Positions 30,176 through 37,377 of a stretch of DNA of 49,007 nucleotides are shown here, piece by piece (the first letter of the stretch is position 1; the number at the start of each line of letters is the position of its first letter). The position numbers were made by a program, and so were the translations under genes. The notes beneath the pieces are model-generated. The model was not told the DNA's origin. It did no database searches and was given only the letters and a program-made list of their open reading frames with translations. The stretch spans positions 1 to 49,007 of the forward strand of contig JACZXA010000006.1 of assembly GCA_022571865.1 (NCBI GenBank). Reading direction: 5' to 3'. The DNA is from Pseudomonadota bacterium. GTDB taxonomy: Bacteria > Pseudomonadota > Gammaproteobacteria > Pseudomonadales > Azotimanducaceae.

Positions 30176-31120
30176 GTGGCAGGTTCGTCAAAAAAAGCGA
30201 TCTATGCAGCCTTGGTAGGCAACACCCTCATTGCGGTGACAAAATTCCTTGCCGCGGGGGTGAGCGGAAGTTCCGCCATGTTCTCCGAGGCCGTTCACTC
30301 GCTCGTGGATACGGGTAATCAGATACTTTTGCTTTACGGCTTGAAGATGGCCGATCGTCCGCCGGATGAGCAGTTCCCGTTCGGCCACGGCAAGGAAATC
30401 TATTTCTGGAGTTTTGTCGTCGCTATTCTGATTTTTGCTCTTGGGTCGGGCGTGTCCCTCTACCTGGGCTGGCAGCATCTCGGCCATCCGGACCCCATCA
30501 GCAATATCGGTTTGAACTACGCGGTGTTGGGAATCGCGATGGTGTTCGAGGGGGGAGCCTTGTGGATCGCCGTACGTGAATTCGGTCGCCACAAGGGGAG
30601 CCTCGGCTTTTTCGAAGCCGTGCGGCAGGGTAAAGACCCAACCATTTTTGTGGTGGTGTTCGAAGACACCGCAGCGATGTTGGGTTTGCTCGTTGCCATG
30701 GTCGGTTTGGGTTTGTATCAGCTAACCGGCAATCCGCTGTTCGATGGTGGCGCGTCGATGCTCATCGGCGTCATCCTCGGCATTACCGCGGCCTGGCTCG
30801 CCTATGAGAGCAAAAGCCTGTTGATCGGTGAGAGCGCGGTACCGGAGACGGTCGCCGCCATCAGAGGGGTGTTGGAAGCAGATGATCGAATCGTGTCCAT
30901 CAACGAGACGGCCACCCTGCATATGGGACCCGCGTACATCATTGTCACCATCAGTGTCGATTTCGTCGACGGTATTGATTCTTCGGAACTCGAAAGTGCT
31001 GTTACCGAGATCAGCAATGCCGTGAAGCGGTTGGACCCGGCGATTCAACGGGTGTTCATCGAAGCCGAACGCAGCGCGGATCACCATCGAGACTCTGGCG
31101 ACGTCTCTACCTCCCAATAA
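30176..31120 (+). CDS. cation diffusion facilitator (CDF) transporter
   Basis: 314 residues, with about six membrane segments and a soluble C-terminal domain (about 215-300). Segment 2 carries the metal-site motif SEAVHSLVDTGNQ, as usual. Segment 5 reads VVFEDTAAMLGLLVA, with Glu-Asp where classical CDF zinc transporters have His-x-x-x-Asp; this resembles the ZnT9-like branch. It would export a divalent cation (Zn, Mn, Fe or Co) by proton exchange. Start GTG at 30176 lacks a good Shine-Dalgarno. The upstream MITE-like element lies in the position where its promoter would be expected. Confidence 0.88.
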   Translation: MAGSSKKAIYAALVGNTLIAVTKFLAAGVSGSSAMFSEAVHSLVDTGNQILLLYGLKMADRPPDEQFPFGHGKEIYFWSFVVAILIFALGSGVSLYLGWQHLGHPDPISNIGLNYAVLGIAMVFEGGALWIAVREFGRHKGSLGFFEAVRQGKDPTIFVVVFEDTAAMLGLLVAMVGLGLYQLTGNPLFDGGASMLIGVILGITAAWLAYESKSLLIGESAVPETVAAIRGVLEADDRIVSINETATLHMGPAYIIVTISVDFVDGIDSSELESAVTEISNAVKRLDPAIQRVFIEAERSADHHRDSGDVSTSQ

Positions 31121-31121
31121 C

Positions 31122-31700
31122 ATGACACACGACATTACGATGGTCGGTTCCGGCATGGGTGGGATGTTCAGGGCTTGCGTTGGCGCATAAAGGCCATCGT
31201 GTCACCGTTTTCGAGCGGGACTCGGTGCCACCCGTTGGGGATGCTGACGGTTTGATGGGTAATTTGGTTCAGGATCACCATCCGGAACTCCGCTACTATT
31301 CTCAGAGCGTACCGAAGATGCGCTGCGTCCTATCTACGATGCGAGTCTGCGTGAAGACCGTAACGGGATAAGACGCGCCAAAGCCGCCATGGAGGGTGTC
31401 GTATTGAATACGCCGGATTCGCTGACGAAGTGGTTCCGGCTGGCTTTCGGTGATGCGATAAGTGCGGCCAGCAGGGAACAGATGCATGTCCTGCGGGGTG
31501 TCATGCGAACCTTCCAGCTGATGGAAAAACCCGGTGAATCCCTTCAAGACAGGCGTGTGAAAGCGACAATTTTTCGGTATTTGGTTCGAGGCCGGAAACG
31601 TAATGCTGCTGCTCGGCTCCAACCCGGACCGAGCTGGGTGGAAATGATTGATAAGTTGGGACCGATGGAGCCTGTAAGTCACGAGCGGATAGGCCCTTGA
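31122..31700 (+). pseudogene. degraded FAD-dependent oxidoreductase/monooxygenase gene
   Basis: Three fragments in two frames read as one broken flavoprotein. ATG at 31122 gives THDITMVGSGMGG, the start of a Rossmann FAD site, and then stops at about 31190. The next frame continues the fold from about 31165 with SGLALAHKGHRVTVFERD. From about 31294 the first frame resumes with LLFSERTEDALRPIYDASLREDRNGI and runs to TGA at 31700. The total (about 190 codons) is less than half of a normal family member, so internal deletions occurred too. It begins one base after the CDF stop. Its final TGA is part of the promoter of the next cassette. Substrate unknown. Confidence 0.8.
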
Positions 31701-31727
31701 CTCTGTAGTAACTACAGGTAATAAGGT
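31697..31727 (+). promoter_or_regulatory. MerR-family-type metal-responsive promoter
   Basis: TTGACT (-35, 31697-31702) and TAAGGT (-10, 31722-31727) are separated by 19 bp. The spacer contains the perfect dyad CTGTAG-TAA-CTACAG (31703-31717). An elongated 19-bp spacer with a central dyad is the hallmark of promoters controlled by MerR, ZntR, CadR or PbrR. The hexamers equal those of merT promoters as I recall them, and the dyad is close to PbrR/CadR-type operators. The expected start is near 31734. No merR-like gene is in the window, so the regulator would act from elsewhere. Confidence 0.85.
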
Positions 31728-31778
31728 AAAGACAGGGTTGGAATCAATTCACGGAATTTCCCGCGACGATGGTGTCCA

Positions 31779-32126
31779 ATGGAGTGCATGAAGCAACGAA
31801 GCAAAAGTAGCAAGGCGCTGGCGCAGCTCGCTGTGATCGTTTTCTGTTTGAATGCGACCTATGGTATTTGCTGTTTTGCGTTACCTACGGCGGATGCGAT
31901 GAATACCGCGGGGATGGAAATGCCCTGTCATCAAACCGATGGCGAAAGCGGCGCATCGTCCACTTCGGATGACTGTTGCTTGATGTGTATGCCGATGATG
32001 GCATCGATCGATATCAGAACCAGCAACGTATCCGCGGAGGTTACTCCTGCCGTCAGGGTGTCACCCGCAGTTACCGTAGGCGGTATTGACCCGCCTTTCA
32101 GGCCACCGACCTCTCGTCTTTCGTAA
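31779..32126 (+). CDS. secreted Cys/Met/His-rich small protein, first gene of metal cassette
   Basis: 115 residues. An N-terminal hydrophobic segment (about 15-32, LAQLAVIVFCLNATYGICC) looks like a signal or anchor. Then comes a metal-ligand-rich stretch GMEMPCHQ...DCCLMCMPMMA (about 45-75). Eight cysteines are present in all. The rest (about 85-115) is proline-rich. The layout recalls the Cys-rich small copper/metal proteins (DUF2946 or CopL type), but I cannot assign a family. It is the first gene after the MerR-type promoter. ATG at 31779 is used; ATG at 31788 is equally possible, since neither has a strong ribosome-binding site. Confidence 0.7.
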   Translation: MECMKQRSKSSKALAQLAVIVFCLNATYGICCFALPTADAMNTAGMEMPCHQTDGESGASSTSDDCCLMCMPMMASIDIRTSNVSAEVTPAVRVSPAVTVGGIDPPFRPPTSRLS

Positions 32127-32133
32127 GTTCCTC

Positions 32134-32155
32134 ATGTCCGTTTTTTGGCGGACAT
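32134..32155 (+). other. hairpin between first two cassette genes
   Basis: ATGTCCG (32134-32140) pairs perfectly with CGGACAT (32149-32155) around the 8-nt loop TTTTTTGG. No T-run follows, so it is not a standard terminator. It may protect or separate the downstream mRNA. Confidence 0.5.
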
Positions 32156-32180
32156 AGTCCACAAACAAACGAAAGGTGAA

Positions 32181-32519
32181 ATGATGTTTAACAGAATTAA
32201 TGTATTGGCGCTGCTTATAGCGCTTATCGCAACGCCTGCATTGGCACAAGACTATGTCATCAAGGTGAACGGCATCGTCTGTGAGTTTTGCTCGCTCGGC
32301 GTGACCAAAAAAATCTCCAAGCTGCCATTCATTGACCACAGCCGATACAACAAAGGTGTCAGGGTCGAGATCGAAGACCAGATGGTAACCATTGCTGTAA
32401 AAGAAGAAGCCGAACTCGACAAAAATGCCCTCTTCGGTGCTATTGAATCAGGTGGCTACAACCCGGTCGATATCTGGCTGCTGACACCTGAGGGCGAACG
32501 CGTCGACTACCAGCCGTGA
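32181..32519 (+). CDS. MerP-like periplasmic heavy-metal-binding protein
   Basis: 112 residues. The signal peptide is about 1-22 (VLALLIALIATPALA, cleavage before QD). The HMA domain carries the metal motif GIVCEFC (Cys34 and Cys37), replacing the usual GMTCxxC, and continues with VTKKISKLP. The protein is longer than MerP (91) by about 20 residues, at the C-terminus (DIWLLTPEGERVDYQP). It would bind a soft metal ion in the periplasm and pass it to the MerT-like partner. ATG at 32181 is preceded by GAAAGGTGA. The next gene overlaps its stop by four bases. Confidence 0.85.
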   Translation: MMFNRINVLALLIALIATPALAQDYVIKVNGIVCEFCSLGVTKKISKLPFIDHSRYNKGVRVEIEDQMVTIAVKEEAELDKNALFGAIESGGYNPVDIWLLTPEGERVDYQP

Positions 32520-33172
32520 GGTGCCTTCGGCTCGCACTCATGCTCTTGGTGAGTAGCTCGGTGTATGCCCATCAACCTGTGATGGATATGGCGCCTCGCT
32601 GGTCGGAAGGTTATGGCTTTCAGACCCGGATCGAGCAGTTCGACTCTAAAACCACCACCTGGGTGGAAGGCGTTTATACATTCAAACCTTCGGTACGCTT
32701 GACCTTCAAGCTACCTCATACCGACGGAGAAATGGGTAATCTGATCCTGGGCGTGCCACTCAAGAAATACGTGAACGAAGGGCCCAAGACATCCAATTGG
32801 GGGATCACGCCGTCGGTAAAACTGCCAACGGGTACTGGTAATGAGGGGGATTGGGATCTGGGTTTGAGTGTTTCCTATAGTGCGGAGACGCCATCCTTTT
32901 ACCAGTTCTATGACCTTTATGCCTGGGATGATCGTGTTGGCCTGGATGTCAACGTGGGTTTTGCTTTCCCGGGAAAAGGCAGCGGGTTGTTTGCACTCTG
33001 GGATGTTTCGGTGTTGAGCTCGAACCAGGGCGATCGGATTCAGACCGGTCCCGTTTTCGTGTATTTCAAAAAGAACCTCATGTTCCGCGCCGAACACAAA
33101 ACCCTCGTCTATGAACGTGACAGCGACTGGTCGGGCAGTTATTTCAGCGTTGCCGTCGGCTTGGTTTATTAG
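32516..33172 (+). CDS. predicted outer-membrane beta-barrel protein of the metal cassette
   Basis: 218 residues. A signal peptide spans about residues 1-18 (LRLALMLLVSSSVYA, then HQPVMDM). The mature part is made of alternating strand patterns rich in aromatic residues and glycine (for example GYGFQTRIEQF, WDLGLSVSYS, VGLDVNVGFAF) and ends in a C-terminal tyrosine (YFSVAVGLVY), as outer-membrane barrels do. No known family was recognised with confidence. The GTG start overlaps the MerP-like stop (GTGA), so it is translated with it. A metal-linked role is inferred only from the operon. Confidence 0.65.
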   Translation: MRCLRLALMLLVSSSVYAHQPVMDMAPRWSEGYGFQTRIEQFDSKTTTWVEGVYTFKPSVRLTFKLPHTDGEMGNLILGVPLKKYVNEGPKTSNWGITPSVKLPTGTGNEGDWDLGLSVSYSAETPSFYQFYDLYAWDDRVGLDVNVGFAFPGKGSGLFALWDVSVLSSNQGDRIQTGPVFVYFKKNLMFRAEHKTLVYERDSDWSGSYFSVAVGLVY

Positions 33173-33181
33173 GAAATAGCG

Positions 33182-33550
33182 ATGGAAAAACCACAGACTT
33201 GGAGCTGGGTGTTGCTGTTCACGACATCGGGCACACTGATTTGCTGCGCGATTCCAATCACGCTGGTCAGCATTGGACTCGGGGCCGTTGTCGCATCCAT
33301 GGCATCGGCCGCACCCTGGATCGTGACGTTGAGCCTGTACAAAGGGTGGATGTTTACGATCTCAGGGGCATTGATTGCGTTGTCCGCCTGGGCTGTATAT
33401 CGCCCGGGTCGTTCCTGCCCGGCCGATCGGGAGCTTGCGGCTGCCTGTGCACGCGCGGATGTCTGGAACCGGCGTTTTATCCGGGTATCCGCGGGTTTGT
33501 GGGGGATTGGTTTTTTTTCCGCCTTTGCGCTCCCGTACCTCAGTTATTAG
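33182..33550 (+). CDS. MerT-like inner-membrane metal transport protein
   Basis: 122 residues with three likely membrane segments (about 10-36, 48-72 and 98-118). Segment 1 has the vicinal cysteine pair Cys21-Cys22 (GTLICCAIPITLVSIGLG), where MerT has Cys24-Cys25. A second pair, Cys79 and Cys89, lies in the loop after YRPGR, matching MerT's Cys76/Cys82 loop. The ALPY ending resembles the MerT FPY ending. MerT moves mercuric ions from MerP to the cytoplasm. ATG follows AGGAAATAGCG. The gene ends the cassette, and no mercuric reductase follows. Confidence 0.75.
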   Translation: MEKPQTWSWVLLFTTSGTLICCAIPITLVSIGLGAVVASMASAAPWIVTLSLYKGWMFTISGALIALSAWAVYRPGRSCPADRELAAACARADVWNRRFIRVSAGLWGIGFFSAFALPYLSY

Positions 33551-33627: not shown

Positions 33628-33714
33628 TGGTGCCGAGGAGAGGACTTGAACCTCCACGGGGTTGCCCCCACTAGCACCTGAAGCTAGCGTGTCTACCAAT
33701 TTCACCACCTCGGC
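33628..33714 (-). tRNA. tRNA-Leu (CAG)
   Basis: 87 nt including an encoded 3' CCA. The acceptor stem GCCGAGG pairs with CCTCGGC. The D-loop, long class II variable arm, and TTCAAGT T-loop are intact. The anticodon stem-loop CTAGC-TTCAGGT-GCTAG places CAG at positions 34-36. The 3' end faces the 27.5-33.6 kb accessory region. In the Pseudomonas order a tRNA-Leu also lies next to rnr. Confidence 0.95.
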
Positions 33715-36777: not shown

Positions 36778-37377
36778 ATGCGACATTACGAAGTCGTTTT
36801 TCTGGTGCATCCAGACCAGAGCGATCAAGTGTCCGGTATGATCGAACGTTACCAGGGGCTTATCGAACGTGGTAATGGGGTCGTCCATCGGCTGGAAGAT
36901 TGGGGTCGTCGGCAACTGGCGTATCCCATCTCCAAGATTCACAAAGCCCATTACGTGCTGATGAACATTGAGGTCAATAACGAAACGCTCGAAGAACTCG
37001 AGAGCGCTTTCAAATTCAACGATGCGGTGCTGCGCAACCTGATCATCAGGCGCAAGGTGGCAGTCACCGGCAACTCCAAGATCTATGAGGAAGAACTCAG
37101 AGAGCAGGAGAAGGATCGGGAACGCGATCTTCGTAATGAGGAAAGGTCTGCCGCGCGTTCCGCGGCGGCTGCCGCGAGTGCAGCGGAAAGCGTCGGGACC
37201 ACCGAAACCCACGCCGAAAAAATGAGTGGAGGCGCCTCCGAAGCAAAGGTCTCCGAAACGGAGGTCTCCGAAACGGAGGTCTCTGAAGCAGGGGTCTCCG
37301 AAGCAAAGGTCTCCGAAACGGTTGAGGAACAGCCCGCAGACGGAGAAGATCGGGCGGAAGAGGAGGATTCGAAGTGA
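36778..37377 (+). CDS. rpsF: 30S ribosomal protein S6 with long acidic repeat tail
   Basis: 199 residues. The core (about 1-100, [20 protein letters not shown] and [11 protein letters not shown]) is a normal S6 that binds S18 on the small subunit. The tail (about 101-199) is much longer than in E. coli S6 (131 total). It first has a charged coiled segment, then alanine-rich [10 protein letters not shown]-like sequence, then six 5-residue VSE(T/A)x units, and an acidic end ([17 protein letters not shown]). GGGAG precedes the ATG. The stop overlaps rpsR. E. coli S6 is also glutamate-tailed, but this tail is unusual in length. Confidence 0.95.
37234..37323 (+). repeat. 15-bp coding minisatellite in rpsF, six units
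   Basis: Six tandem 15-bp units, mostly GTCTCCGAAACGGAG-like, encode [30 protein letters not shown]. Units 2 and 3 are identical. Units are a multiple of three, so expansion or contraction would keep the frame. Confidence 0.9.

Follow-up and report, generated by a model that had tools for sequence, protein, structure and literature searches.

Metal-sensing upstream open reading frames (ORFs) that act through arrest peptides are known chiefly from copper operons. In Rhodobacter capsulatus, translational control of cutOG by the upstream ORF cutF has been tested experimentally, and CutF-like ORFs have been delimited as shorter than 150 amino acids (aa), with PP within the last 15 residues and an N-terminal export signal (PMC9973294). 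The design of CruR, a DUF2946 protein of Bordetella pertussis, has likewise been tested experimentally (PMC9426467), its arrest at RAPP has been shown in vitro (PMC12992588), where the two proline codons occupy the P and A sites, and its cysteine motif lies 45 residues from the proline motif, as in CutF (PMC9973294). Here we describe a four-gene cassette within a 49,007-nucleotide (nt) stretch of DNA (hereafter the window; contig JACZXA010000006.1, positions 1 to 49,007, of assembly GCA_022571865.1) from a gammaproteobacterium of the Azotimanducaceae. A short Cys-rich ORF (the lead) stands before genes for a periplasmic HMA protein, a predicted outer-membrane barrel, and a MerT-like inner-membrane protein. 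The cassette is probably a metal-induced, envelope-spanning relay operon for a soft metal, controlled at transcription by a MerR-type regulator and at translation in a CutF-like manner. The gene order, motifs, fixed spacings, covarying pairing at the ribosome entry site, and shared operator described below can be read directly from the DNA. All coordinates are on the plus strand unless stated otherwise.

The lead ORF (31779 to 32126; a second possible start is the ATG at 31788) encodes 115 aa with an apparent export signal, MPCH, CCxxC, and a C-terminal FRPP. Its proposed role is that of a metal-sensing arrest-peptide upstream ORF, cis-acting and CutF/CopL-like, that gates the other three genes, a proposal that draws on the alignment of leads, their motif spacing, and weak CopL and DUF2946 matches of its relatives. 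The CCxxC codons (C66, C67, and C70; 31974 to 31988) form the proposed metal site and the RPP codons (R108-P110; 32100 to 32108) the proposed ribosome arrest motif, which is invariant in 16 of 16 leads and lies five codons before the stop. The last cysteine of CC/CYxxC is 37 residues from the arginine of RPP in every one of the 16, and RPP is always followed by five residues and the stop, while the distance from PC[H/Q] to CC varies from 15 to 40 residues. A fixed C-terminal ruler with a free middle fits the requirement of a nascent chain in the ribosome tunnel. Residues N25, C31, P49, C50, C66, C70, R108, P109, and P110 are invariant in an alignment of 13 leads, which also shows a hydrophobic segment closed by YGACC-like sites (seen by alignment rather than signal-peptide prediction). 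The 16 leads range from 107 to 140 aa (some starts are uncertain) and all have PP within the last 15 residues, so that they fall within the CutF-like limits of length and motif position. As a separate observation, a GGTGTCnnAT-like box recurs just upstream of the lead starts in several loci (31769 to 31780 in the window).

The gap between the lead and the HMA gene is about 55 nt in the window and 50 to 97 nt across homologous loci. The last lead codons (TCGTCTTTCGT, 32114 to 32124) are predicted to form an 11-bp helix with a 3' arm (ACGAAAGGTGA, 32169 to 32179) that carries the Shine-Dalgarno (SD) sequence of the HMA gene, and an inner hairpin, ATGTCCG...CGGACAT, is predicted after the lead stop (32134 to 32155). 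Such a local hairpin is predicted in 13 of 13 loci folded, with differing sequences, and Rfam has no family for it, the sole Rfam match being a tRNA. Pairing between the lead 3' end and the HMA SD region is predicted in 14 of 16 loci: in 11 of the first 13, in varying register and with per-locus shuffle p from 0 to 0.10, and in all three loci found later (p = 0.037, 0.01, and 0.047 against shuffles). The mean over the first 13 loci was 8.7, compared with 4.9 for the highest of 300 shuffled sets and 3.3 for 41 ordinary gene pairs on the same contigs (Mann-Whitney p = 1.6e-6 against the 16 loci, which is not a strict probability since these loci are related). On a plain MAFFT alignment of 13 loci, the helix has a covariation score of 0.254 against 0.170 +/- 0.024, a value reached by 0 of 500 shuffles, although kinship of the sequences can inflate this comparison; 76% of its cells are paired, versus 40% to 51% for slid helices. 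Because residues past the arrest point cannot aid stalling, a role in the RNA is the likeliest reason for the conservation of the lead tail. When the first 19 nt are covered, as by the edge of a ribosome, the predicted mean accessibility of the SD rises from 0.12 to 0.42 (from 0.05 to 0.66 in the window), a gain that is partly trivial since the 5' arm is removed from the fold. An intrinsic terminator was also considered for the gap between lead and HMA gene, and none lies there among the terminator-like sites listed.

The three genes downstream are closely packed. The HMA gene (32184 to 32519, with a further in-frame ATG at 32181) encodes a 111-aa MerP/CopZ-like protein with GIVCEFC, and its stop overlaps the start of the barrel gene (32516 to 33172) by 4 nt; the gene for the MerT-like protein (33182 to 33550) follows after 9 nt. 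Given this overlap and short gap, and on the general basis of translational coupling, one ribosome-entry gate before the HMA gene could serve all three. The first-pass annotation had described four tightly packed genes, which holds for these three; the lead stands apart by the gap described above. The MerP-like protein that it had named is present, although below curated cut-offs: the sequence contains CEFC, Pfam HMA (PF00403) matches it with E = 9e-4 (20 bits against a cut-off of 24.8), and among NCBIfam models CopZ (9e-5) ranks ahead of MerP (TIGR02052; 0.003, 17.9 bits against 92.55). The predicted outer-membrane barrel was supported as well. The window copy has no family match of its own; three relatives match PF13557 (best 7.6e-11), and the AlphaFold2 model forms a 12-strand barrel (pLDDT 82.6) whose best solved matches in Foldseek are FapF and the COG4313 channel 4rl8. 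The sequence HQPxMDMAPRW at its apparent mature N-terminus is nearly unchanged in 17 relatives. The MerT-like protein has the cysteine pairs attributed to it (C21 C22 and C79-x9-C89), and PF02411 matches 20 of 26 relatives (best 7e-6), the window copy scoring 0.087 (13.3 bits against a gathering score of 32.9). Its AlphaFold2 model has three main helices at modest confidence (pLDDT 73), and comparison with the PDB gave no significant match.

The MerR-type promoter noted at first pass is present at 31697 to 31727. It consists of TTGACT (31697 to 31702), a 19-bp spacer (31703 to 31721) containing the dyad CTGTAGTAACTACAG, and TAAGGT (31722 to 31727); the dyad is a perfect 15-bp CTGTAGT-A-ACTACAG at 31703 to 31717. 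The zero-mismatch operator pattern occurs at two sites in the 4.56-Mb genome, each upstream of one copy of this cassette type, and the operator element recurs upstream of cassettes in genomes G007 and G001. Neither merA nor a regulator gene lies near the cassette in the window, as the annotation had stated; a candidate regulator gene is found on contig C104, where the same 15-bp dyad type (CTGTAGTTACTACAG) precedes the MerR domain by about 50 bp. Since the dyad also stands before this orphan gene, the regulator probably acts in trans, encoded on the other contig. In G007, the same operator separates the cassette from a homologous MerR gene that is read divergently, and further out lie ArsR-like, CusA/CzcA-family, and CDF-like genes. 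The C104 and G007 proteins are candidate regulators of the CadR/PbrR/MerR kind, with which the dyad promoter and its 19-bp spacer also agree. Their top NCBIfam model is CadR/PbrR at 128 to 132 bits, under the 151-bit cut-off, with MerR, CueR, and ZntR close behind and no regulator cut-off passed; the regulator favors cadmium, lead, or mercury. The closest solved structure is 5gpe, a MerR-family regulator that we take to be of the PbrR type. The dyad is also found on contig C297 of the window genome, next to a GDCCVxC-MerT locus (L083:4761-5835). Sharing it there are a GDCCVxC gene, a MerT-like gene of more classical type, and a MerR ORF that seems damaged, since its frame leaves the family once past the DNA-binding portion.

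Non-conservation of the four genes had been set beforehand as one ground for rejecting the first-pass interpretation, but the four prove to be conserved. Searches of a genome collection and of whole genomes recovered 15 complete sets with the order lead-HMA-barrel-MerT, that of the window included (the others being L025-L030, L032, L033, L043-L045, and L076-L078), mostly in Pseudomonadales, plus one set split over what appear to be two contigs of one genome (L040 and L031). The lead of L045 was recognised by position and alignment, and L079 was left out of the count as probably the same genome as L033. Since gene order is conserved in relatives, the cassette is not a chance assembly. The barrel is present in 9 of the 392 genomes of the order, and a sample of 369 genomes from the class yielded no further one that has it. 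On contig C96 of the window genome, a different putative barrel accompanies a MerT-HMA set of more distant kinship, and distant sets (L034, L035, L037-L039, L046, and L050-L052) are often near MerR, GDCCVxC, glutaredoxin-like, or RND genes. By eye, four diverged sets (L039, L051, L080, and L081) have a Cys-rich head ORF with PP near the C-terminus, perhaps reflecting the same control with other barrel types. These head ORFs precede MerT/HMA/barrel or HMA/barrel genes and have QPPP, HPP, DPP, or RPP near the C-terminus; pairing of SD and lead end was not found in L080, whose predicted fold pairs the SD with the intergenic region.

Together, these features suggest how the operon may work. A MerR-family activator encoded elsewhere would bind the dyad in the over-long spacer and activate transcription on binding metal in the cytoplasm. 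Translation of the lead ORF would yield a nascent chain that, as with CutF, CopL, and CruR, is rich in Cys and destined for export. On free mRNA, the last lead codons would pair with the SD of the HMA gene and keep its translation low, and that of the barrel and MerT-like genes would be low as well through their overlap and tight packing with it. A ribosome slowing or stalling at the C-terminal [F/Y]RPP would cover the 5' arm of the helix with its leading edge and free the SD. The CCxxC motif would then sit some 40 residues from the peptidyl-transferase center and thus near the tunnel exit or translocon, and metal bound there would tune the stall, with the polarity of CutF, in which more metal gives more stalling and turns the genes on. 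The three products may then form a relay in which metal moves between the barrel in the outer membrane, the HMA protein in the periplasm, and the MerT-like protein. We infer the stalling, its metal dependence, the polarity, the metal (copper as opposed to mercury, cadmium, or lead), and the direction of transport. As a tentative extension, to which we give appreciably less credence than to the operon model itself, the two controls could form a two-compartment coincidence detector, in which transcription would need a metal-bound cytoplasmic MerR and translation would need the nascent lead to meet metal in the periplasm or at the translocon; together they would gate a barrel-HMA-MerT relay that moves metal between both membranes without a reductase.

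The arrangement shares with CutF-cutOG (PMC9973294) a short, apparently exported Cys-rich upstream ORF, a C-terminal proline motif, a short gap, a predicted SD-masking stem, and metal genes downstream. It differs in having HMA-barrel-MerT genes where cutOG has a multicopper oxidase, in placing the masking strand within the upstream ORF's own last codons, and, in the window genome, in the added MerR operator. With CruR (PMC9426467) it has in common a position at the head of a metal operon and a constant spacing between a Cys motif and a C-terminal R..PP; CruR, in contrast, has RAPP, a 162-nt gap, and Rho termination, and the leads match DUF2946 (PF11162) weakly (2 of 13, best E = 0.009; separately, L078 at 0.68; the gathering score not being reached). 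The CopL model (NF033807) matches the cassette leads L078 (2.6e-6) and L076 (1.3e-5) as well as copper-operon relatives of the lead, all below its cut-off of 40 bits (28.1 bits for the best cassette lead), whereas CopL itself heads copper oxidase genes. As in MerT/MerP, a protein of three predicted helices has CC in the first of them and a Cys pair in the loop, and it has a periplasmic HMA-like partner, but the loop pair is C-x9-C, the HMA partner is nearer CopZ, a predicted outer-membrane barrel is present, and no MerA passes its cut-off here.

Several observations weigh against CutF-like control. The leads end in [F/Y]RPP rather than the R-[AG]-P-P of RAPP peptides with demonstrated arrest, the arginine being one position off, so that arrest at the lead C-terminus is presumptive; and the proline tail of CutF gave no strong stall by itself (PMC9973294). 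The spacing from CCxxC to RPP is 37 residues as compared with 45 in CutF and CruR. The window lead matches no family model, and its relatives match CopL or DUF2946 below cut-offs only. Two loci (L025 and L040) lack the SD pairing and three (L028, L030, and L077) have it in a shifted register. The cassette can also exist without a lead: a second HMA-barrel-MerT copy in the window genome (contig C203, L041:6653-8088), with barrel and MerT 63% to 70% identical, directly follows the MerR operator and lacks a lead ORF, as though it had lost one, and the G001 copy (L047) is alike. Among the cassettes inspected, the operator was not seen upstream of any other than those of the window's clade, so double control appears limited to this clade.

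A copper cassette, in which the lead senses Cu(I) and the HMA, barrel, and MerT-like proteins move copper, is compatible with CutF-like control and is a serious possibility, if somewhat short of an even one. Profile searches placed distant relatives of the lead upstream of a multicopper oxidase gene (L099 and L100, the latter CopA-type with CueR adjacent) and of cusBA (L101), which favors copper for the lead. L100 and L101 end alike in PFRPPI, and CopL matches them with 0.003 and 6.7e-8, respectively. The affinity of the HMA protein to CopZ over MerP and the apparent mature N-terminus of the barrel, where an invariant His precedes QP.[x]MDM, point the same way, while the MerR candidate of the window genome is nearer CadR/PbrR and MerR than CueR.

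The opposite polarity, in which metal relieves the stall, switches the downstream genes off, and lets the cassette take up a scarce metal, seems unlikely. Copper relieves the arrest of CruR in this way (PMC9426467), and an outer-membrane protein plus carrier would suit uptake. However, CruR works through Rho termination across its long gap, while the gaps here are short and the SD is masked, as in CutF. From knowledge of the family, moreover, a MerR-type promoter implies induction by excess metal.

The lead might instead be a working periplasmic metal-binding protein, a sponge or a donor to the HMA protein, the SD pairing being incidental. Its apparent signal peptide, its nearly invariant MPCH and CCxxC, and its co-conservation with the other three genes would all be expected of such a protein. 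The exact rulers of 37 and 5 residues around a free middle fit a tunnel or translocon ruler and not a folded carrier, the tail is conserved past the arrest point in codons that pair and covary with the SD, and the C203 and G001 copies do without a lead; this explanation is accordingly improbable. The first-pass annotation had placed the lead in the metal route as a metal-rich secreted protein, and here the evidence favors an upstream ORF, while its two-membrane MerP/MerT-like set without a reductase stands.

A worn-down mercury operon importing Hg(II) for a MerA elsewhere, as the MerT/MerP-like proteins, the GDCCVxC partner found in relatives, and the true merA adjoining the distant set L046 might suggest, is marginally less probable again, given a conserved rather than decayed set, a CusA/CzcA-family efflux set adjoining the G007 cassette, regulator candidates that score about as well with MerR as with the nearest CadR/PbrR model and below cut-off with both, and a window genome (93% complete) in which a search for merA found no MerA over the cut-off, the best match (386 bits against 454) being taken, from its neighbors and the start of its sequence, for a housekeeping flavoprotein.

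If CutF-like control is correct, a nascent-chain device of copper genes also controls mercury-type transport genes in a marine bacterium. A lead with a 37-residue ruler and a covarying SD mask before a Mer-like set would bring a new class of transport genes under nascent-chain metal sensing. It would also offer a compact, testable system in which transcriptional control by MerR and translational control meet, and suggest what small Cys-rich proteins with PP at the end may do, which otherwise pass as secreted and of unassigned function. A literature search returned nothing relevant on a MerT-HMA-barrel operon or GDCCVxC, and the main text of the CutF study (PMC9973294), as distinct from its supplementary tables, has no mention of MerT, HMA, or mercury.

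A CDF gene (30176 to 31120) was considered as an operon member and set aside, as it is not adjacent to the other cassettes inspected. Just upstream of the cassette (31123 to 31700), FAD oxidoreductase-like ORFs appear to be broken across frames, a possible pseudogene. A tRNA-Leu (CAG) gene on the minus strand (33628 to 33714) lies directly downstream, and since such genes are a common insertion site, the cassette may have been acquired. Further along (36778 to 37377), a ribosomal protein S6-like ORF has a long, repetitive acidic C-terminal extension.

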